This document shows positions 3,460-20,419 of a stretch of DNA of 20,419 nucleotides, one piece after another. Positions within the stretch are counted from its first letter, which is position 1. Every line of letters begins with the position of its first letter. The stretch covers positions 1-20,419 of IMG/VR virus record IMGVR_UViG_3300032668_000165, one strand, 5' to 3'. This stretch comes from a virus. Made by a program: the position numbers and the translations under genes. The notes beneath the pieces are model-generated. The model had not been told where the DNA came from, did not search any database, and was given only the letters and a program-made list of their open reading frames with translations.

Positions 3460-4338
3460 ATGTCCAGAATTACTCTTGATAAAATAGAATTCTACATCAC
3501 CAATGTTTGTAATTTAGCCTGTTCTCACTGCAATAGATTTAACGATTATCATTTTACCGGTTGGCAACGCTGGTCTGACTATGCTGATGATTATGCGTTA
3601 TGGTCTAAGTATATTGACTTCAAAAAAATAACAATCCTAGGTGGTGAGCCATTGCTTAATCCTACCATTACTGAATGGATCAAAGGTATTAATCAACTAT
3701 GGCCTGATGCTATTGTGCAAGTACTGACCAATGGCACACGCCTCAACAATGTAGACGGATTGTATGAACTGATGCCAACGGGCACAAGAAATTGGTTGGG
3801 TATAAGTTTACACAATGAATACAATGAAGAAGAAATTTTTACAGAAGTAAAAAGTTTTTTAAAAGGACAAGTCACAGTCCTTGAAGGCAAAAATTCAAAC
3901 TCAGCCGGAGCAGACTGGCTGTATCGAGATGAAAATGGAGTACAAATTGGTATCTGGCGCCAGGATACTTTTGCTCGAGCCGCACTGACCTATACCGCTG
4001 ATAATAAACTAACACTACACAACAGTGATCCGTATCTGGCACATCGTAGTTGTGGATTTGCCACTTGGAAAAATTATCATCTAATTCGCGGAAAATTGTA
4101 CAAGTGTGGACCGGTAGCACTTTTCCCAGAGTTTGACCAGCAACATCCTTTAGAACTATCTCCAGAGGACAGGCAGTTGATCAACAGTTACCAACCATTA
4201 TCCGCCCAGGAGTTTGAAACTCGCGGTGCAGAGTTTTTGGCTAATATAGATAATCCCTTAGCACAGTGCAAATTTTGCCCAGAACGCTATGAAACTGAAA
4301 AGATCTTTGCTATACGCAAAGGTAGCAAAAAACCATAA
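3460..4338 (+). CDS. Radical SAM protein with C-terminal auxiliary-cluster cysteines
   Basis: The 292-residue protein carries the radical SAM signature CNLACSHC (Cys17, Cys21, Cys24, the CX3CX2C ligands of a 4Fe-4S cluster), the GGEP SAM-binding motif at 61-64 (ILGGEPLLNP), and later strand motifs VLTNGT and GISLHN. Four further cysteines (198, 216, 270 and 273, the last pair as CKFC) could hold a second, SPASM/twitch-like cluster. The expected chemistry is reductive cleavage of S-adenosylmethionine to make a 5'-deoxyadenosyl radical; the substrate cannot be inferred. Proteins with this 'CxRFNxYxFTGxQRW' segment are, as I recall, present in T4-like phages of aquatic bacteria without a known role. 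The ATG lies nine bases after the previous stop and has no Shine-Dalgarno sequence. The gene ends inside the promoter of the gp13 gene. Confidence 0.85.
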   Translation: MSRITLDKIEFYITNVCNLACSHCNRFNDYHFTGWQRWSDYADDYALWSKYIDFKKITILGGEPLLNPTITEWIKGINQLWPDAIVQVLTNGTRLNNVDGLYELMPTGTRNWLGISLHNEYNEEEIFTEVKSFLKGQVTVLEGKNSNSAGADWLYRDENGVQIGIWRQDTFARAALTYTADNKLTLHNSDPYLAHRSCGFATWKNYHLIRGKLYKCGPVALFPEFDQQHPLELSPEDRQLINSYQPLSAQEFETRGAEFLANIDNPLAQCKFCPERYETEKIFAIRKGSKKP

Positions 4339-6673: not shown

Positions 6674-7338
6674 TCATTGGAATTTGTGGATTAATTGGCT
6701 CAGGCAAGGACACTATCGCTGACTACTTACAAAACATACACCAGTTCCGACGAGAATCATTTGCCCATACACTTAAAGATGCTGTAGCCGCCATTTTTGG
6801 TTGGGACCGCGAGCTATTGGAAGGACGCACCAAAGAAAGTCGTGCCTGGCGTGAGCAAGTAGATCCATGGTGGGCTGAACGCCTGGGCATGCCGCACTTA
6901 ACTCCACGCTGGGTGCTACAGTATTGGGGTACAGAAGTAGCTCGTAAAAGTTTTCACGACGATATGTGGATTGCTGCCTTAGAAAACAAACTACGCAAAA
7001 CTAAAGACGATATTGTTATTAGTGACTGTCGTTTTCCTAACGAAATTGCCGCTATAAAATCAGCTGGCGGAATAGTAATTCGTGTGGTCCGTGGGCCAGA
7101 ACCTGAATGGTTTCCATTTGCTGAAGCGGTAAATCGTGGTCCAGATCACAATCTACACTGGAGTTGGAGTAAAACTCAGCTGGCTAAATTCAATATTCAC
7201 GCTTCTGAAACTGCTTGGATTGGCACTAAATTTGACTATATTGTAGACAATAATGCTGATGGGTTAGATAACTTATACAGTCAGGTTAAGCATCTGGTAG
7301 AAGATCTCCAGGCTTCCACGGAAGATCAGCTTTCTTAA
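6670..7338 (+). CDS. 1: Deoxynucleoside monophosphate kinase (T4 gp1-like)
   Basis: A 222-residue P-loop kinase. The Walker A motif is GLIGSGKDT (residues 7-15), followed by the lid and nucleotide-binding segments KDAVAAIFGWDRELLEG, WVLQYWGTEVARKSFHDDMW and the Walker B-like strand DIVISDCRFPNE. This combination (GSGKDT, then F-A-xx-LK-D-AV, then R-x-x-LQ-x-x-GTE-x-R, then D-x-RF-x-NE) is characteristic of the T4 gene 1 family, which phosphorylates deoxynucleoside monophosphates to diphosphates for phage DNA synthesis. Length is close to T4 gp1 (241). The ATG overlaps the upstream stop as ATGA. The last 53 bases overlap, tail to tail, the end of a gene on the other strand. Confidence 0.9.
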   Translation: MIIGICGLIGSGKDTIADYLQNIHQFRRESFAHTLKDAVAAIFGWDRELLEGRTKESRAWREQVDPWWAERLGMPHLTPRWVLQYWGTEVARKSFHDDMWIAALENKLRKTKDDIVISDCRFPNEIAAIKSAGGIVIRVVRGPEPEWFPFAEAVNRGPDHNLHWSWSKTQLAKFNIHASETAWIGTKFDYIVDNNADGLDNLYSQVKHLVEDLQASTEDQLS

Positions 7339-7693
7339 CATCAACAACACAGTTTAGGCATATTGTTTTTAAATTGCGTAAACCAGTGTTGTTTAAATTT
7401 CCGTCAATGTGAAATACTAACAGCTGAGCTGAATACTTAGCTCTAAATCCACAGCGGTCACAGGCCGCTTTTTTCTTGTACCCAGCCTTGACCCAACGAG
7501 CTTCTGGCGGCTTTTGTTTGCGCCCTCGTTTGATACAGTGTTCACACCTACTACGATAGTGAGTAACTCCGTCTTTGTGATAGTTTACAGCGCAAAAACG
7601 CTGTGTACAAGCGGTGCATAAGGGTCTGTCCATGGTATATTTACCATTAAACCTTGGCCAAAGGGATGGTATATCGTAATATTTTTGTCGCAT
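7286..7693 (-). CDS. Small zinc-cluster, HNH-like protein
   Basis: A 135-residue basic protein with nine cysteines, eight of them in CxxC pairs: Cys26/29, Cys50/53, Cys78/81 and Cys112/115. The C-terminal part, VFHIDGNLNNTGLRNLKTIC then CLNC, has the shape of an HNH/endonuclease VII-type core (His95, Asn102, Asn107, and a CxxC zinc pair). The residue after the last pair is Val where many HNH proteins have His, so activity is uncertain. The N-terminus (LWPRFNGKYTMDRPLCTAC) and GYKKKAACDRCGFRAKYSAQ look familiar from uncharacterised proteins of T4-like cyanophages. The gene is inserted on the opposite strand between gp1 and the tail sheath, overlapping gp1 by 53 bases. Its ATG is seven bases downstream of a TAATAT box and has no Shine-Dalgarno sequence. 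It may be a DNA-binding or homing-type protein. Confidence 0.75.
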   Translation of the reverse strand: MRQKYYDIPSLWPRFNGKYTMDRPLCTACTQRFCAVNYHKDGVTHYRSRCEHCIKRGRKQKPPEARWVKAGYKKKAACDRCGFRAKYSAQLLVFHIDGNLNNTGLRNLKTICLNCVVDVKKADLPWKPGDLLPDA

Positions 7694-7695
7694 TC

Positions 7696-7703
7696 GCTAA
7701 ATA
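7696..7703 (+). promoter_or_regulatory. Late promoter-like box GCTAAATA before tail sheath
   Basis: GCTAAATA matches the late box in its TAAATA core. The predicted start near 7709 gives a leader of about 21 bases with AAGGA (7718-7722), seven bases before the ATG at 7730. It lies in a 36-base divergent interval shared with the HNH-like gene. Confidence 0.5.
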
Positions 7704-7706
7704 TTA
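7701..7706 (-). promoter_or_regulatory. -10-like box for the HNH-like gene
   Basis: On the minus strand TAATAT ends seven bases before the ATG at 7691-7693. There is no convincing -35 box. The distance matches the leaderless promoters at 2010 and 2293, which is the main support. Confidence 0.3.
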
Positions 7707-7729
7707 CTATTAATAAAAAGGATTTAACC

Positions 7730-10700
7730 ATGACTTTACTATCGCCTGGCGTCCAAGTTACTGTAGTTGACCAAAGCAATTACTTACCTGCACCAACTAA
7801 TTCAGTGCCATACATCTTGTTGGCAACAGCTTCAAATAAAGTATCCGGAGTCGGAACTGGTATTGCTCCTGGCACACTAGCCGCGAATGCAAACCAATTA
7901 TATTTAATCACTAGTCAGCGTGATTTGGCTTCTGTATACGGCGTACCATTCTTTTATCAGACAAGCAACGGTACTCCAATCAATGGATATGAGCTTAATG
8001 AATACGGATTGTTAGCAGCCTACAGTGCTTTAGGTGTAACTAACCAGTGCTATGTACAGCGTGTCGATATTGACTTGGCAGCGTTGACAGCTACTTTGGT
8101 TCGTCCTACAGGCACTCCACCTAACGGAACTTATTGGTTAAACACAAATACAACAAAATGGGGAATCTTCCAGTGGAATCAAGTTACAGGCGCATTCACT
8201 AATCAAACTCCTATTGTTATTACAAATACAGATCAAATTAGTGGTGGTATCCCAGCACAGACAGTTGGTAGTATTGGTCAATATGCTGTTAATGCTACCA
8301 GCATTTATAATCCAATTTATTTTAAAACTGGTGCGGCTAACAGCACACAAACTACTGCGACTTATCTAAGTAATCTTTACAACACTTGGGTACAGATTGG
8401 TAGTGCAGATTGGGAGCTTAGTTTCCCAACAGTGCAAGGCACATTGACACCAACATCCTTGACAGCCGGTAATACATTTATTATCAATGGCACAACAATT
8501 ACAGTACCAGCCGGTCCAAATAACACCGTTGCTGGAGTAGCTGCCGCTATTAACAGTGGAAGTATTAGTAATGTCTATGCGGCCGCTATTAATGGCGCAC
8601 TACAAATTTTTGCTACTACAACTGCACTTAATGGCACAGTAGTTATTGCCAATGGCGCAGGTACAGCTCTAACACAGTTGGGCATTACTGCTGGCACATA
8701 CAATCCACCAGCTTATCAAGCTAGTCCTAGTTATGTAGTTCCAAACTGGAACACTTACAGTACCAGTCCAGCCGGCGGATCACCTACAGGTTCTGTTTGG
8801 ATTAAAACATCCAATGTTAACCTAGGCAGTGATTTCAACATTAGCAAATGGAATTCTACATTAGGTGTATGGGTTCCACAGTCATGCCCAGTATATGCTA
8901 GTGATGCACAGGCAATTTATGCCTTGGATCCAAGCGGTGGCGGTCAATTAATTCCTGTAGGCACAACTTATGCTCAGGTCAATTCTAATACAGGATATCA
9001 AGCAGACTTCCGTATTTTTGAACGCTATGCAACTGGACCAACTATTATTACTGGTACAACAACTAGTCCAACATTCCCTCCTATCACAGGTACACCTACT
9101 AGTTTCTACTTGAGTGCAACACAACCAGAAACAGCAACAGTAACCGCACAAGTAAATGTTCCAGTGTTAGCACAAGGTAGTACTACTGGTACACCTACTG
9201 CCGCCGACTTTGTGGCTGCCGTTAGTGCTGCCGCAGTTCCTTATGTAACAGCTTCTGTAAGTAGTACAGGTGCATTAGTATTGACACACTCATTGGGTGG
9301 CGATATCTATGTAACTAACCATGTAGGTAGCCCAATTACTGCCGCTGGTTTCAATACAAATTGTGTTGGCGCTATTCAGAATCAAACAGCTACTGGATTG
9401 ATTTTAAGTAACTGGGCTACTGCTCCAACATTTACATACTCAGCTAGTGATGTTGCTCCAGATCAAGATCCAGCAACAGGTACATACTGGTATTACAGCG
9501 ATCCTACACAGGCGGACATTATGATTCAAAATAATGGTCAATGGGTAGGTTATCAGACAGTTAGTACAGATGTTCGCGGATACAATTTAACATTGTGTAA
9601 CGCTACAGGTCCTATTATTTCAACCACAGCTCCTACAACACAGACTAACACTAGTAAGAGTCCATTGGTTTATGGAGATTTGTGGATTGACACTAGCGAT
9701 TTAGAAAATTATCCAATGATCAATCGTTGGCAGAATGTCAATGGAGTTGATCAATGGGTTGCAATTACTAACACAGATCAAACTACAAGTAATGGTGTAT
9801 TGTTTGCAGATGCTCGTTGGGCACCAAATGGTACAACAGATCCAGTAGCTGATCCAATTCCAACTATTCAAAGTTTGTTAACAAGTAATTATTTAGATCC
9901 AGATGCACCAAGTCCAGATCTATATCCAGATGGAATGTTGCTTTGGAATACTCGTCGTAGTGGTTTCAATGTTAAAACATATCAAGCTAACTATTTTAAC
10001 AACCAAGCATATCCTGCTTACACATGGTCAGCAAGTACATCATACGCTATTGGCGCATTAGTTACTTACGGTGATCCTGCTATTGTTTATATCTGCTTAC
10101 AAGCAAATACTAATCAAGAGCCAGATACACAAACTGCATATTGGAGCCCAATCACTGTTACTAGTACATGGTTAACAGCTAGTGGTAATAGAGCTGACGG
10201 TAGTCCATATATGGGTCGTCAAGCTCAAAGAGCAATTATTGTTAAAGCTCTTAAAGCTGGTATCAGTACAAATAGTCAAATTCTTGAAGAACAGAATCAG
10301 TTTAACTTGATTGCCTGCCCACAATATCCAGAATTGGCACCAGACATGGTAGCATTGAACAATCAGCGTAACAATACTGCATTTAGTATTGTTGATACAC
10401 CATTGCGTTTAAGCCCAGCTAATGTAGTTGAGTGGGCCACAAACAATAATGGCTTAGGTTTACCAACAGGCGATGGTCTGTTAGTTGGTGACGAGTACGC
10501 TGGAGCATTCTACCCAAGTTGCCAAACTAATGATTTAAGTGGTAACACAGTTGTTACAGCACCTAGTCATATGATGGTTCGTACTATTATCCGTAGTGAT
10601 GCTGTTGGTTATCCATGGTTAGCACCTGCTGGTGTAAACCGCGGTGTAGTTGACAATGCTAGTGCAATTGGTTACCTAAACGAAACAACAGGCGAATTTG

Positions 10701-11158
10701 TTCAGTTAGGCGTAAATCAAGCTCTGCGTGATGTATTGTACGAAAACGATGTAAACCCAATTACATTTATTCCTGGCGTTGGTATTACTAACTTTGGTAA
10801 TAAGACAACAACTAGTGTAACAACACTATTGGATCGTATCAATGTAGCTCGTTTAGTAGCATTTGTTCGTGGTCGTTTGTCAGTAATTGCTAAACAGTAC
10901 CTGTTTGAACCAAACGATCAAATTACTCGTAATTCTATTGCTAGTGCAATTACAAGTTTGATGATTGATCTTGTGGCAAAACGCGGTATCTATGACTACT
11001 TGGTAGTTTGCGATACATCAAATAACACACCAGCAACCATTGATGCTAATGAATTGTTTGTAGATGTTGCTATTGAACCAGTAACAGCAGTTGAGTTTAT
11101 CTACATTCCAGTCATTATTGAAAATACTGGAGCGATAGCGGGTAGCCAAACAGCGTAA
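7730..11158 (+). CDS. 18: Tail sheath protein gp18, with large insertions
   Basis: A 1142-residue contractile tail sheath subunit. The N-terminus MTLLSPGV matches that of T4 gp18 (MTLLSPGI), and residues about 740-1142 form the conserved sheath body and C-terminal domain (GNRADGSPYMGRQAQRAI, GDEYAGAFYPS, PWLAPAG, then VARLVAFVRGRL). T4 gp18 has 659 residues, so roughly 450 are extra. The extra part holds two flagellin-IN-like beta modules (about 237-325 and 456-542), four Trp-centred repeats around Trp136, Trp357, Trp587 and Trp652 (pattern G-x-x-W-x-x-T/D then W), and a CBM5/12-like module at about 763-808. The ATG at 7730 is chosen over an in-frame TTG at 7685 because AAGGA sits seven bases upstream and the protein then begins as gp18 does. 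Sheath subunits stack around the tube and contract to drive infection. Confidence 0.93.
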   Translation: MTLLSPGVQVTVVDQSNYLPAPTNSVPYILLATASNKVSGVGTGIAPGTLAANANQLYLITSQRDLASVYGVPFFYQTSNGTPINGYELNEYGLLAAYSALGVTNQCYVQRVDIDLAALTATLVRPTGTPPNGTYWLNTNTTKWGIFQWNQVTGAFTNQTPIVITNTDQISGGIPAQTVGSIGQYAVNATSIYNPIYFKTGAANSTQTTATYLSNLYNTWVQIGSADWELSFPTVQGTLTPTSLTAGNTFIINGTTITVPAGPNNTVAGVAAAINSGSISNVYAAAINGALQIFATTTALNGTVVIANGAGTALTQLGITAGTYNPPAYQASPSYVVPNWNTYSTSPAGGSPTGSVWIKTSNVNLGSDFNISKWNSTLGVWVPQSCPVYASDAQAIYALDPSGGGQLIPVGTTYAQVNSNTGYQADFRIFERYATGPTIITGTTTSPTFPPITGTPTSFYLSATQPETATVTAQVNVPVLAQGSTTGTPTAADFVAAVSAAAVPYVTASVSSTGALVLTHSLGGDIYVTNHVGSPITAAGFNTNCVGAIQNQTATGLILSNWATAPTFTYSASDVAPDQDPATGTYWYYSDPTQADIMIQNNGQWVGYQTVSTDVRGYNLTLCNATGPIISTTAPTTQTNTSKSPLVYGDLWIDTSDLENYPMINRWQNVNGVDQWVAITNTDQTTSNGVLFADARWAPNGTTDPVADPIPTIQSLLTSNYLDPDAPSPDLYPDGMLLWNTRRSGFNVKTYQANYFNNQAYPAYTWSASTSYAIGALVTYGDPAIVYICLQANTNQEPDTQTAYWSPITVTSTWLTASGNRADGSPYMGRQAQRAIIVKALKAGISTNSQILEEQNQFNLIACPQYPELAPDMVALNNQRNNTAFSIVDTPLRLSPANVVEWATNNNGLGLPTGDGLLVGDEYAGAFYPSCQTNDLSGNTVVTAPSHMMVRTIIRSDAVGYPWLAPAGVNRGVVDNASAIGYLNETTGEFVQLGVNQALRDVLYENDVNPITFIPGVGITNFGNKTTTSVTTLLDRINVARLVAFVRGRLSVIAKQYLFEPNDQITRNSIASAITSLMIDLVAKRGIYDYLVVCDTSNNTPATIDANELFVDVAIEPVTAVEFIYIPVIIENTGAIAGSQTA

Positions 11159-13038: not shown

Positions 13039-13398
13039 ATGGGCTCAGTTAACAATACTAATACCAATATTGATCAATCAGTTCAAATATTTGATAACTT
13101 TTACAAATATGAAGACTTTGTTCCACAGCTCGAGTATGATGCTGTTTACAGTTTTTTTGCCAGCGTTTTTGGCACAACAGAAGCCGCGGCTAATTTTACT
13201 GTAACTTTATTTCGAGTCGCACAACAAAGTCAAATTTCGGTGTTAACATTGTTACAGCAGATTGAAGGACTCAACGGACTTGAATTAAACTTAACACTGG
13301 CATATTATCTAAATAATATTCGTAGCCCTAGTACACTGTTGGGAGTAAATGTACCTACTGCTCCTAATTACTATGCGGCAAGAAATGTAAAAGCATGA
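13039..13398 (+). CDS. Small protein of unknown function in the tail/head block
   Basis: A 119-residue, mostly helical protein. It starts with a polar N-terminus rich in Asn and Thr, followed by FDNFYKYEDFVPQLEYDAVYSFFASVFG, then AAANFTVTLFRVAQQSQISVLTLLQQI, and a final LNLTLAYYLNNIRSPSTLLG. I believe similar short proteins ('EYDAVYSFF ... NFTxTLFRVAQ') occur near tail genes of T4-like cyanophages, where they are labelled structural or hypothetical. A virion component or a tail-assembly chaperone is plausible. It begins four bases after the preceding stop, and its own stop overlaps the next ATG as ATGA, so it is translated with gp4 and the tube proteins. No function is assigned. Confidence 0.75.
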   Translation: MGSVNNTNTNIDQSVQIFDNFYKYEDFVPQLEYDAVYSFFASVFGTTEAAANFTVTLFRVAQQSQISVLTLLQQIEGLNGLELNLTLAYYLNNIRSPSTLLGVNVPTAPNYYAARNVKA

Positions 13399-13826
13399 GT
13401 CATTTTGCCCAGGGTGTCTACACTGTAAAAAACAGAGAGAAGTATGTAGGAAATGGACTTCCTAGATACCGTTCTGGTTGGGAACAGGCATTTATGCGCT
13501 TTTGCGATAACAACGAACACATTCTACAGTGGGCCAGCGAAAGCCTACGCATACCTTATCGTAATCCTATCACTGGAAAAGAAAGCATTTATGTTCCAGA
13601 TTTTTTAATTACCTATCGCACTCGCAACAACACTATGGTTGCCGAAGTAATTGAAATTAAACCAAAAAAACAAAGCGTTATTGAAAGTAAAGCATCTAAT
13701 CGAGATCGTGCGGTAGTGGCTGTTAACTACGCCAAATGGGATGCCGCTACTAAATGGTGTGCCCGTAATGGACTTAAATTTCGGGTAGTAACTGAAGACG
13801 AGTTATTTAAGAACGGCACCAAATAA
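13395..13826 (+). CDS. 4: Head completion protein gp4, PD-(D/E)XK nuclease fold
   Basis: A 143-residue protein close in length to T4 gp4 (150). It carries YRSGWE (25-30; 'YRSNWE' in T4), ILQWASESLRIPY (43-55; 'IIAWGSETAVIPY' in T4), and a restriction-endonuclease-like core: VPDFLI with Asp69, then EVIEIKPKK with Glu87 and Lys89. It ends GLKFRVVTEDEL, matching 'GIKFRILTEDGL'. In T4, gp4 acts with gp2 after packaging to finish the head before the tail attaches; the nuclease-like core suggests trimming or holding the DNA end. The start is coupled to the preceding gene by an ATGA overlap. The gene is followed at once by the small terminase, placing two packaging-stage functions together. Confidence 0.92.
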   Translation: MSHFAQGVYTVKNREKYVGNGLPRYRSGWEQAFMRFCDNNEHILQWASESLRIPYRNPITGKESIYVPDFLITYRTRNNTMVAEVIEIKPKKQSVIESKASNRDRAVVAVNYAKWDAATKWCARNGLKFRVVTEDELFKNGTK

Positions 13827-17368: not shown

Positions 17369-17725
17369 ATGCGAGCTCGCGAGTTCATTACCGAAGCTAA
17401 TTTTGATAAAGATCATCAATTAGCTATTCCAGGTGCAGAAAAATATATGGGATTAGATAATTCTAATCCATACCATATGTGGAGATACATTGTAGCTACT
17501 GGTGCCAGAGACGGCAAAGGCAACGGTTACAAATTACCACTTGAAGGTCCAACCGGGCAAAAATTAACAACGGTCGCATACAGCAAAGAGGATGAAGAAA
17601 TACTTCATGACACTGCTAAGATGCTTGGATTTAAACCTACCAAAATGAGCAATCGAGACTCTAAAGAGCCAGACGAAATTCATCGTGTTAGCCCAGTTAA
17701 AGGATTCAAAGGGTATGCAAGATGA
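17369..17725 (+). CDS. Capsid-targeted paralogue 1 (internal head protein candidate)
   Basis: A 118-residue protein, first of four tandem paralogues. The N-terminus MRAREFITE followed by Ala fits the T4 capsid targeting sequence (M-K/R ... F-I-x-E, then a small residue), with cleavage expected after Glu9. The body has LDNSNPYHMWRYIVATGA, GPTGQKLTTVAYSKEDEEIL and AKMLGF, and it ends SPVKGFKGYAR. Paralogue 3 shares LDNSNPY, GPTGQK and VAYSK, so these two are the closest pair. AGGA at 17357-17360 lies eight bases before the ATG. The stop overlaps the next start as ATGA, and AAAGGG inside the codons of the C-terminal motif stands eight bases before that start. A role as an injected protein comparable to T4 internal proteins is inference. 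Confidence 0.8.
   Translation: MRAREFITEANFDKDHQLAIPGAEKYMGLDNSNPYHMWRYIVATGARDGKGNGYKLPLEGPTGQKLTTVAYSKEDEEILHDTAKMLGFKPTKMSNRDSKEPDEIHRVSPVKGFKGYAR
17708..17713 (+). promoter_or_regulatory. Ribosome-binding site inside the paralogue 1 C-terminal motif
   Basis: AAAGGG encodes part of FKG in the conserved C-terminus and sits eight bases before the ATG of paralogue 2. The equivalent AAAGG at 18429-18433 serves paralogue 4. Paralogue 3 has only ACGGA at 18077-18081. Confidence 0.6.
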
Positions 17726-18096
17726 GAGCCCGAGAGTTTATAGCTGAACAAGTTGGTGTAATGACCGACTATCAAAGTTCTCCTATGAAAGGGGCCGAGA
17801 TGGTACGAGATGGTGACAACATTGATCGCACCTATCACATGAATCGATTAATGATGGCCATGGCCATGGCTGATGGTAAAGATCGCAAACCGGTTAAAAT
17901 GGATGATTCTGGTTGGACTGAAAAGTTTAATACTGTTCACCCATATACCGAAGAAGAACACAATATGTTGCACCAGGCTATGGGTGCAATTAGTACAGAA
18001 CATGTATCAGGTTTTAAAAATCATCACTCAACTGAACCTAAAGATGTGCATAAAATAAGTCCAGTCACTGGATTCAACGGATATGCACGAAAATGA
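17722..18096 (+). CDS. Capsid-targeted paralogue 2 (internal head protein candidate)
   Basis: A 124-residue protein starting MRAREFIAE followed by Gln, with the same capsid-targeting-like N-terminus (IAE is identical to the last three residues of the T4 IPIII signal). The body is the most divergent of the set: RTYHMNRLMMAMAMADGKD, DSGWTEKFNTVHPYTEEEHN, then LHQAMGAI. It ends HKISPVTGFNGYARK, keeping the family C-terminus. His is frequent. It overlaps paralogue 1 by four bases and its stop overlaps paralogue 3 by four. I recall proteins with 'MAMAxxDG ... HPYTxEE' bodies among unannotated T4-like phage proteins, which suggests this copy belongs to a wider family; a search would settle it. Confidence 0.8.
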   Translation: MRAREFIAEQVGVMTDYQSSPMKGAEMVRDGDNIDRTYHMNRLMMAMAMADGKDRKPVKMDDSGWTEKFNTVHPYTEEEHNMLHQAMGAISTEHVSGFKNHHSTEPKDVHKISPVTGFNGYARK

Positions 18097-18446
18097 GAGC
18101 TCGCGAATTTATCACTGAAGGTTTTGAAGAAAAACTAAGTCAATCCGCTATTGAGGCAATACCGGGAATGGAAAGATTTAATGCCTTAGACAACAGTAAT
18201 CCTTATATGATGTGGAGATTCATTGTTGCGGCAGCAGGCGAACCAGATTTTCCAATGGACCGTTCGGGCCCAACTGGACAAAAATTTGTTACTGTAGCCT
18301 ACTCTAAAGCTGATAAAGAAATTATTGATGCCACCGCAAAGACAATGGGAGTGACTGGAACGCAAATTAGCACAGCGGCTTCTGAAGAACAACCTGGAAC
18401 TGGAATAACCAGCCCTATAAAAGGCTTTAAAGGCTACCCAAGATGA
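18093..18446 (+). CDS. Capsid-targeted paralogue 3 (internal head protein candidate)
   Basis: A 117-residue protein starting MRAREFITE followed by Gly, the gp21-type cleavage pattern. The body has IPGMERFNALDNSNPYMMWR, FIVAAAGEPDFPMDRSGPTG, VTVAYSKADKEIIDATAKTM, and the ending ITSPIKGFKGYPR. It is closest to paralogue 1. The upstream site is weak (ACGGA at 18077-18081), so translation probably depends on coupling to paralogue 2 through the ATGA overlap. AAAGG at 18429-18433, within its own C-terminal codons, is nine bases before the next start. Synonymous codon differences from paralogue 1 in the shared N-terminal motif show that the protein sequence, not just the DNA, is conserved. Confidence 0.8.
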   Translation: MRAREFITEGFEEKLSQSAIEAIPGMERFNALDNSNPYMMWRFIVAAAGEPDFPMDRSGPTGQKFVTVAYSKADKEIIDATAKTMGVTGTQISTAASEEQPGTGITSPIKGFKGYPR

Positions 18447-18829
18447 GAGCTAGCGAATTTATCACTGAGGCCAAGCGTGGAAAATTAAGCGCAGATGAAT
18501 CAAGACCAATGCGCGATACATTTTTCCTTCCTGGCATCCGTAATAACGATGCTTACAAAAGTTATAGATTAAGTTTAGCATTTGCTCGAGCTCGTGTTGA
18601 CAATGCAGGATATGGAGATGAGCTTCCAGAATGGAACGAGCAAGGAGCATTAGGACCATATGCTGTAGTATCAGTAGTAGGAACCAATGGAGAGGACCTA
18701 GTCGATCAGGCATTAAAAATGACCGGGGTTCCGGGTGGAAAAATTAATGTAGCTGGTAACAGTAGTTCGGAGCCAGCTGATGTAAATAAATCTAGCCCAG
18801 TTGCAGGATTTAAGGGCTACGCAAGATAA
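18443..18829 (+). CDS. Capsid-targeted paralogue 4 (internal head protein candidate)
   Basis: A 128-residue protein starting MRASEFITE followed by Ala, the fourth copy of the capsid-targeting-like N-terminus. The body contains PGIRNNDAYKSYRLSLAFAR, LPEWNEQGALGPYAVVSVVG, NGEDLVDQALKMTGVPGGK, and it ends VNKSSPVAGFKGYAR. The central segment aligns with the others at the 'PG-x(6-9)-N-x-x-Y-x-x-x-R' and 'D-x-A-x-K-M/T-G' positions. It is the last of the tandem set; its stop (TAA) does not overlap the next gene, yet the C-terminal GFKGYAR is still present. That argues that the motif is kept for the protein and not only as a ribosome-binding site for a downstream copy. Confidence 0.8.
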   Translation: MRASEFITEAKRGKLSADESRPMRDTFFLPGIRNNDAYKSYRLSLAFARARVDNAGYGDELPEWNEQGALGPYAVVSVVGTNGEDLVDQALKMTGVPGGKINVAGNSSSEPADVNKSSPVAGFKGYAR

Positions 18830-18843
18830 CAAAGGAAAATAAA

Positions 18844-19668
18844 ATGAAAAAAATTATAACAGGGCTATTATTAGTTCTAGCAACAAGTACTGTATTTGCC
18901 TGGACACAACGTCAACCGTTTCCTCCAGCACAATGTCAAGCACACGCACCATACGGATTCCCAGAATCAGCTAAACCAATTCAACCATTATGCCAACAAG
19001 CATATTTGGTAGGGTACGATGCACAGGCAAAATTACCAGAATTTGTTATGTATGAGTTAACTCCTCCTAATGCAATAGGTTGTGTTGCCCGTACTAATGC
19101 ATTTGCCGCTAACCAGTTTGTTCAAAATGGAGCAACACCAGCTGACTATGCTGGCACAGGCTACGACAAAGGACACATGGCACCAGATGGTGACTTGTCA
19201 TGGAACACACAAGTTGAGTTTGAAAGTTTTTTGATGACAAACATGAGTCCACAAGCAGGTTCTTTAAATCGTGGCATCTGGAAATTACTAGAGACCAGTG
19301 TTCGTGGTTGGGCTGTACAACGCAACCAGTCGTACACAGTTATCGCGGGTGGTTTGTATGGTCCTGGTGATAAGACAATCGGTAAAGGTGTAGTTGTACC
19401 ACATGGCTTTTACAAGATTGTAATCAACAATCAAACTAAAGAAGTAGCTGGTTGGGGATTCCCACATACAGCACCATATCCAAACTTAGGCAATGACTTA
19501 ACTAAGTTCCGTGTACCTGTTGCTACTATTATGGCAGACGCACAAGTTAAGTATGCATTACCACAAGGCTATGTTGAATTAGCACCAGGTAAAGAATGGC
19601 CAGTTGATTTTGGTGCATTGACTAATGCTAAACGAGCTAAGTGTGGTGCTAACGCATCAGATGACTAA
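18844..19668 (+). CDS. Secreted DNA/RNA non-specific endonuclease (NUC family)
   Basis: A 274-residue protein with a clear Sec signal peptide: MKK, a hydrophobic core (IITGLLLVLAT), then VFA with cleavage expected after Ala19. The mature part is a beta-beta-alpha-metal nuclease of the Serratia/NucA family. The DRGH box appears as DKGHMAPDGD, with catalytic His111. Asn142 (LNRGIWKLLE) is the metal ligand, and Glu150 and Arg154 keep the +8 and +12 spacing of Serratia nuclease Asn119, Glu127 and Arg131. Four cysteines (31, 50, 80 and one near the C-terminus) could form disulfides in the periplasm. AAAGGA (18831-18836) is seven bases before the ATG. It should cleave DNA and RNA outside the cytoplasm, which would keep it off phage DNA during packaging. 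A signal-peptide nuclease within a T4-like head/packaging block is unusual. Its role (host or rival DNA breakdown, or lowering lysate viscosity) is unknown. Confidence 0.9.
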   Translation: MKKIITGLLLVLATSTVFAWTQRQPFPPAQCQAHAPYGFPESAKPIQPLCQQAYLVGYDAQAKLPEFVMYELTPPNAIGCVARTNAFAANQFVQNGATPADYAGTGYDKGHMAPDGDLSWNTQVEFESFLMTNMSPQAGSLNRGIWKLLETSVRGWAVQRNQSYTVIAGGLYGPGDKTIGKGVVVPHGFYKIVINNQTKEVAGWGFPHTAPYPNLGNDLTKFRVPVATIMADAQVKYALPQGYVELAPGKEWPVDFGALTNAKRAKCGANASDD

Positions 19669-19921
19669 GCAGTATAGAATTACTACACAAAACATACACC
19701 CTCAAGATGAGGGTGATTGTTTTTTAGATCCCTTAGATCCCGTTAACGGGCTGAAGGCAACTAGCATTATGGGCGGTCTAGGCACAATCAATCGCCTAGC
19801 CGAATATAATTTAAAAACTCAAGAAGATCAAATTAAAAAAATACTTGACCAAAGACAACAAGCAGAAACACTCGGCATTCGTCCTGGCAGTCCTGCTTGG
19901 TTGGCTATGTTTTCTAAATAA
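19661..19921 (+). CDS. Small protein of unknown function before the large terminase
   Basis: An 86-residue protein starting at the ATG that overlaps the nuclease stop by eight bases; an in-frame ATG-less extension upstream lies within the nuclease gene and is less likely. Visible parts: NIHPQDEGDCFLDPLDPVNG, IMGGLGTINRLAEYNLKTQE, a charged helix (DQIKKILDQRQQAETLG), and IRPGSPAWLAMFSK at the end. I believe short proteins with the 'NIHPQDxGDCFL' start and 'GIRPGSPAW' end occur in T4-like cyanophages, so it is probably real. It lacks a good Shine-Dalgarno site, suggesting coupling to the nuclease. A strong intrinsic-terminator structure lies within codons 13-22, so expression and termination may compete. 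The function is unknown. Confidence 0.65.
   Translation: MTKQYRITTQNIHPQDEGDCFLDPLDPVNGLKATSIMGGLGTINRLAEYNLKTQEDQIKKILDQRQQAETLGIRPGSPAWLAMFSK
19697..19725 (+). terminator. Intrinsic terminator inside the 86-residue gene
   Basis: CACCCTC (19697-19703) and GAGGGTG (19709-19715) form a perfect seven-base-pair stem with a five-base loop, followed by ATTGTTTTTT (19716-19725). This is the best intrinsic terminator in the window. It lies 29 bases after the nuclease stop and would end the head-protein/nuclease transcript unless ribosomes translating the overlapping gene disrupt it. Confidence 0.75.
19724..19741 (+). repeat. Tandem 9-base repeat
   Basis: Two exact copies of TTAGATCCC lie head to tail and encode Leu-Asp-Pro twice. 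A 12-base perfect palindrome CCCGTTAACGGG (19739-19750) overlaps the second copy. The repeat directly follows the terminator T-tract. Confidence 0.7.
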
Positions 19922-19948: not shown

Positions 19949-20419
19949 ATGGCCGCAGAAGGAAACCTAATAAAAACGCCGCATAAGCGTACGGCGTATA
20001 CAGCACAACAATTAGAAGAATTTATGAAATGTGCGGATCCTATCACGGGTCCAGAATATTTCATGGATAACTTTTTCTACATACAGCATCCAACTAAAGG
20101 AAAGATGTTGTATCATCCATACGACTATCAAAAGAGGTTAATAAAAACTTACCATAATTATCGTTACAGTATTTCAATGATGCCACGACAAACTGGTAAG
20201 TCTACCAGTGCCGCTGGTTATCTATTATGGTACGCTATGTTTGTTCCAGATTCAACGATTCTTATTGCCGCACACAAGTACACAGGCTCACAAGAAATTA
20301 TGCAACGCATTCGCTACGCTTACGAACTGTGTCCAGATCATATTCGTGCTGGTGTGATCAGTTACAACAAAGGCAACCTGGACTTTGAAAATGGAAGCCG
20401 TATTGTGTCAGCAACAACT
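19949..20419 (+). CDS. 17: Large terminase subunit gp17, 5' part only
   Basis: The first 157 residues are present; the frame runs off the window. YDYQKRLIKTYHNYR is followed by the Walker A loop MPRQTGKST ('SRQLGKTT' in T4 gp17). Then come ILIAAHKYTGSQEIMQRIRY, AYELCPDHIRAGVISYNKGN and LDFENGSRIVSATT, matching the T4 order 'ILAHKGSMSAEVLDR', '[20 protein letters not shown]', 'IELDNGSSIGAYAS'. The protein is the packaging ATPase, with a C-terminal nuclease expected beyond the window. The start ATG has no Shine-Dalgarno site and lies six bases after a late-type box. It is separated from the small terminase by the head-protein and nuclease block. Confidence 0.95.
   Translation, partial: MAAEGNLIKTPHKRTAYTAQQLEEFMKCADPITGPEYFMDNFFYIQHPTKGKMLYHPYDYQKRLIKTYHNYRYSISMMPRQTGKSTSAAGYLLWYAMFVPDSTILIAAHKYTGSQEIMQRIRYAYELCPDHIRAGVISYNKGNLDFENGSRIVSATT

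Follow-up and report, generated by a model that had tools for sequence, protein, structure and literature searches.

The window, i.e. the whole stretch of viral DNA that was analysed (20,419 nucleotides, IMG/VR record IMGVR_UViG_3300032668_000165), carries genes for a tail sheath, tail tubes, a head-tail adaptor, a gp4-like head closure protein and a T4-type terminase (terL, Terminase_6N). The source is a large T4-like phage that is uncultivated. An ORF for a putative exported nuclease, here called NUC, is located shortly before terL and follows four overlapping ORFs (Table 1). The N-terminal motif of these tandem ORFs presumably corresponds to the capsid-targeting sequence of T4 internal head proteins. 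The function of this sequence in T4 internal proteins has been reviewed (PMC9026906). The four ORFs have N-termini of the type MRAREFITE↓ and common C-termini (GFKGYAR), and judged by their sequences they probably arose by duplication and encode internal head proteins that are packaged. The tag (MRAxEFxxE) is also found on other, unrelated ORFs in relatives, and capsid-tagged proteins adjoin NUC in the window as well as in several relatives. The small ORF overlapping the end of NUC gave no family match in a profile search.

Table 1 Features around the nuclease gene, with positions in the window
Feature	Position	Strand	Remarks
Four overlapping ORFs (118, 124, 117, 128 aa)	17369..18829	+	MRA(R/S)EFI(T/A)E starts; directly upstream of NUC
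NUC ORF	18844..19668	+	274 aa; ATG at 18844, stop ends 19668
Predicted Sec signal peptide	18844..18900	+	Residues 1-19; cleavage after VFA
DKGH catalytic motif	19165..19176	+	D108-H111
Metal-binding/catalytic helix	19267..19305	+	Carries N142, E150, R154
Small ORF, 86 aa	19661..19921	+	Overlaps NUC end
TAAATA late-promoter-type element	19915..19920	+	35 nt before terL
terL start (T4-type large terminase)	19949..20419	+	Runs off the window

Residues 36-237 of NUC match Pfam family Endonuclease_NS (PF01223, E 4.3e-38) over the whole domain, with a score of 131.6 bits compared to a curated cut-off of 23. The protein also matches PHROG 14168 (nuclease, 5.8e-34) and no structural-protein family. 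The first-pass annotation had described this ORF as a NUC-family endonuclease with a beta-beta-alpha-metal active site in the spacing of the Serratia enzyme. Its coordinates were exact and the residues lie where it had placed them: the catalytic places are filled by D108-K109-G110-H111, N142, E150 and R154. The closest solved structures by sequence are Anabaena NucA (1zm8, E 7.5e-14) and EndoG/EXOG, while Serratia nuclease is found at ~2e-9. No gap interrupts the alignment with NucA on the stretch that links the GH motif with the N/E helix, so that the active site has the spacing typical of the family. In a set of 50 sequences from phages and cells, H111, N142 and E150 are invariant and R154 is present in at least 90%.

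The predicted structure (pLDDT 92.5, pTM 0.89) superimposes on worm EndoG, NucA and Serratia nuclease with Z scores of 29, 28 and 26, respectively, over 214-219 residues; the rmsd of the best matches is 1.6-2.5. NUC thus resembles the Serratia nuclease/NucA/EndoG/EXOG group in fold (Z 26-29 over ~215 residues) and in the H/N/E/R active site. Nevertheless, it is only 21-27% identical to EndoG/NucA/Serratia-type enzymes in structure alignments, it has DKGH in place of the ARGH type of NucA, and it possesses a conserved C-terminal stretch ending in KCG, unlike the members of that group. The Serratia and Anabaena nucleases are secreted proteins. A search for inhibitors of the NuiA type gave 0 matches in 16 phage contigs, with the control genomes likewise at 0. 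Taken from sequence and structural model, the assignment of NUC as a Sec-exported, non-specific DNA/RNA endonuclease of the EndoG/NucA/Serratia fold with an intact active site is well supported, and nuclease activity would be expected.

For comparison, 368 relatives of NUC were collected by one pattern scan of IMG/VR. Eighty of them (74-100% identical) were kept, comprising 56 distinct proteins, which share 125 invariant positions, all catalytic residues among them. Cys31, Cys50, Cys80 and Cys267 are also invariant in this set and may form disulphides. The approximate dN/dS was highest in the signal peptide (0.27) and lower in the mature part (0.10) and near the active site (0.06), all rough values because synonymous changes are near saturation. 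NUC is present as a single copy in each of 14 long contigs. With 368 relatives found in that one scan, we rejected the idea of a stray moron gene.

The signal peptide reads MKKIITGLLLVLATSTVFA and is followed by W, giving a putative cleavage site of the A-x-A↓W type. A basic start and a hydrophobic core are kept in 56/56 distinct orthologues, residue -1 is Ala in 53, Ser in 2 and Gly in 1, and the mature protein begins with W(T/N)QR. Length varies between 18 and 25 residues, and the signal-peptide stretch belongs to the least conserved regions of the protein. Its sequence thus drifts with the Sec design retained, which argues for selection on its function; judged from these comparisons, the signal peptide is under selection. 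A simple signal-peptide rule was passed by 72/78 NUC proteins compared to 50/1161 other ORFs of the same loci. The textbook Sec signal recognised in the first reading was therefore confirmed by the n/h/c pattern and the rule-based test. Export and cleavage of NUC would follow from these features. All 56 distinct orthologues carry a Sec signal and none a capsid-targeting tag. As a consequence we rejected a T4-type internal, capsid-packaged protein as the main reading of NUC.

The homology search proposed in the first-pass annotation revealed relatives in phages (in addition to the 368 from IMG/VR, 37 of 50,697 phage records at 1e-3) as well as in cells. The phage matches include YerA41/GN1, RaK2-like Klebsiella phages, XaC1, Phosso, Flavobacterium immuto phages and Campylobacter CJIE4, and all six homologue copies that were read have a signal-peptide-like N-terminus. 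The view that an exported nuclease is unusual for phages is thus only partly true, as exported relatives occur in several unrelated phages. The family had exported members in phages before, in Campylobacter CJIE4 and, by annotation, in RaK2-like Klebsiella phages and YerA41, and NUC is a new, widespread one. Cellular best matches, with Bacteroidales at the top, reach no more than 42% identity in one genome scan, and the phage clade of NUC is single and long-branched in the tree. A recent host origin was rejected on these grounds, although a short-pattern scan could miss nearer relatives.

The endonucleases of Yersinia phages YerA41 and GN1 are the top phage-database matches (34-36%) and carry a signal peptide, but their neighbourhood is unlike that of NUC, with annotated sigma-70-type promoters nearby instead of a T4-type late promoter. 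The periplasmic-type DNA/RNA endonucleases of the large phages Muenster and K64-1 (RaK2-like Klebsiella phages), XaC1 and Phosso also belong to the family and have signal peptides; they are 30-36% identical to NUC on separate branches, and their genes lie in small-gene or tRNA regions, not in late head, tail or lysis regions. CJE1441 of the Campylobacter prophage CJIE4 is likewise a phage-encoded family member with a signal peptide. It differs in belonging to a temperate prophage, is ~27% identical to NUC over part of its length and groups with cellular genes of Campylobacterota. CJE1441 is reported to act outside the cell, and its disruption restored biofilm formation and abolished the degradation of existing biofilms; according to the same authors, expressing such nuclease genes in the cytoplasm can be lethal (PMC4372405). 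The enzyme is also reported to counteract natural transformation (PMC3995785).

A T4-like head/packaging block, as originally described, is indeed present in the window, with terL, tail, adaptor and head closure genes, but most relatives carry NUC elsewhere. At least seven gene neighbourhoods were found, the terL-adjacent block being one of them; others contain AlgH-like, HNH and DUF454 genes (context B), the spanin region (context C) or further arrangements (contexts D-G). A fixed location in the head block was accordingly rejected. On the NUC tree the terL-adjacent label changes 7 times, and 23 changes are counted for eight labels in total, one label being a mixed 'other' class. The gene was thus often moved or exchanged, which makes the head-block setting incidental. 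Among the neighbours, an ORF of another radical-SAM-like family adjoins NUC in L005 and L072. A lysozyme function for neighbour family 1 was rejected, as the SLT domain is present in some members only and the cluster is mixed.

A nuclease gene lies up to 4.5 kb upstream of terL on the same strand in 13 of the 49 terL relatives whose upstream sequence was long enough. Five of these 13 genes belong to the subfamily of the window and eight to a second subfamily, which is 32-39% identical to NUC and has DRGH, a Sec-type signal and at least four cysteines. DRGH-type nucleases were seen in this slot in L092, L098, L100, L102, L103, L107, L120, L127, L147 and L151. Both subfamilies form separate, fully supported clades in the tree, and long branches meet where they join, which bears on a shared phage ancestry. 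A PF01223 gene is present in 6/7 terL-related contigs >100 kb.

Regarding the time of expression, we considered TAAATA preceded by one base (NTAAATA), which we take to be the T4 late-promoter type. Of 54 distinct upstream regions, 38 have this element at a distance of 27-40 nt from NUC, compared to a mean of 3.7 and a maximum of 12 in shuffles of the same 54 stretches; the contexts are related, so that the 54 regions do not represent 54 independent events. The 16 regions without NTAAATA are mostly of the terL-adjacent type, including the window. Here no late-type element is found 20-60 nt before NUC, and the nearest one, at -61, falls within the last of the tagged ORFs. Such elements do precede structural genes of the window by 23-35 nt, namely Ad2 (4336), sheath (7698), tube1 (11193), g202 (14341) and terL (19915). 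Because a late promoter directly before NUC is lacking, late expression in the window rests on the run of head genes and terL, and terL-adjacent NUC genes are probably read through from preceding late genes. From late-type promoters and late neighbours, synthesis of NUC late in infection is predicted. With its changing contexts, NUC looks like a mobile late-expressed cassette.

In three relatives of context C (L043, L077, L079) o- and i-spanin genes are directly convergent with NUC, in L025 of the same context the spanin genes are 2-4 kb away, and a lipoprotein of the spanin-cassette type lies ~1-5 kb from NUC in several other arrangements. When 18 whole contigs were searched with i-spanin and lipoprotein profiles, i-spanin was detected in 6, at a distance of up to 5 kb from NUC in G009 only, at ~10 kb in G007 and at >50 kb in G001, G004 and G028. 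A general link between NUC and lysis genes was rejected on these 18 contigs, since it is present in some arrangements only. In the spanin operons of L079 (3380-4819, minus strand) and L025 (4364-6057, minus strand), the i- and o-spanin genes are accompanied by an extra lipoprotein gene and an ORF of 85 aa; for this lipoprotein no clear family match was found. As relatives carry spanins, the host is presumably Gram-negative. The spanin adjacency seen in some relatives supports a function of NUC in connection with lysis.

Late-type promoters, late neighbours and spanin adjacency in some relatives together favour action at or around lysis. According to the model we prefer, NUC would be made late in infection as a non-specific DNA/RNA endonuclease and carried by the Sec system to the periplasm, where the signal peptide would be cut at A-x-A↓W. 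The protein would probably fold there with the help of the four invariant cysteines and use a bound metal, kept apart from the phage DNA that is being replicated and packaged in the cytoplasm. Upon envelope failure at lysis, the enzyme would meet the chromosome of the host, phage DNA left unpackaged and RNA and degrade them, while genomes protected by capsids would survive. The gain would be a freer release and spread of virions, with less DNA for them to stick to. To a late periplasmic nuclease acting when the cell lyses we assign about an even chance; lysis as the moment of action is suggested by the gene context.

The first reading had named a block to superinfection, feeding on extracellular DNA and thinning of the lysate as possible roles, with no preference among them; action around lysis gains from the promoters, neighbours and spanins, but early superinfection exclusion is weakened. 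T4 DNA that is excluded is broken down in the periplasm by endonuclease I of the host. NUC might replace or supplement this enzyme and destroy the DNA of a second phage there, in agreement with its predicted periplasmic location and non-specific activity and with its place among variable accessory genes, as is often the case for anti-competitor genes. We consider this unlikely and weight it lower because of the late timing: NUC would arrive after most of the superinfection risk. Furthermore, the tail of a T4-like phage usually carries DNA past the inner membrane as long as no Imm-like protein stands in the way, and a search of the available literature for superinfection exclusion by a phage periplasmic nuclease found no such mechanism.

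Secreted nucleases feed some bacteria. One example is cited in PMC4372405. NUC could similarly cut periplasmic or extracellular nucleic acid and supply nucleotides or phosphate for phage DNA synthesis, and the window does encode a deoxynucleotide monophosphate kinase. Late synthesis is poorly suited for feeding replication, however, and no transporter or nucleotidase linked to NUC was seen in the neighbourhoods, so that we regard scavenging as improbable.

Equally improbable is a nuclease that is associated with the virion and whose site of action would be the entry step or the surface of the next host. The hint comes from YerA41 only, whose homologue is annotated as 'phage particle associated protein'; the capsid-tagged neighbours described above would also fit. 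On the other hand, every orthologue has a Sec signal instead of a capsid-targeting tag, and NUC itself has no structural-protein family match. The 63 particle-associated proteins of YerA41 detected by LC-MS/MS include polymerases and helicases (PMC7354516), which makes carry-over plausible. An effect on the host or its community, either removal of biofilm eDNA or blocked uptake of free DNA, is known for the homologous prophage enzyme CJE1441 (PMC4372405; PMC3995785) but appears very improbable here, because the phages look large and of lytic type, with neither an integrase nor a repressor noted in the window, and because an advantage of blocked transformation is not evident once the cell is dying.

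A broader version of the lysis model is possible but doubtful: a dedicated late clean-up nuclease, exported ahead of lysis, may be a standard extra exit element of widespread uncultivated T4-like phages, beside the proteins breaking cell wall and outer membrane, encoded by a cassette with its own late promoter that moves between late loci and is filled from two nuclease subfamilies. If this is right, large phages would routinely handle nucleic acid spilled at lysis, a little-studied step of phage exit, with their own exported enzyme. Consequences would then be expected for the spread of virions, for environmental free DNA and for gene transfer.

Some further genes of the window deserve mention. 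A radical SAM protein (PF04055) is encoded between structural genes at 3460-4338. A Cys-rich, HNH-like ORF without Pfam match (7286-7693) lies on the opposite strand and overlaps the end of the upstream gene. The gp4-like head closure protein (13395-13826) also matches the N-terminal domain of TnsA endonuclease. The tail sheath (7685-11158) is very long with 1157 aa and is closest to those of the jumbo phages Atu_ph07, Phosso and PA5oct.
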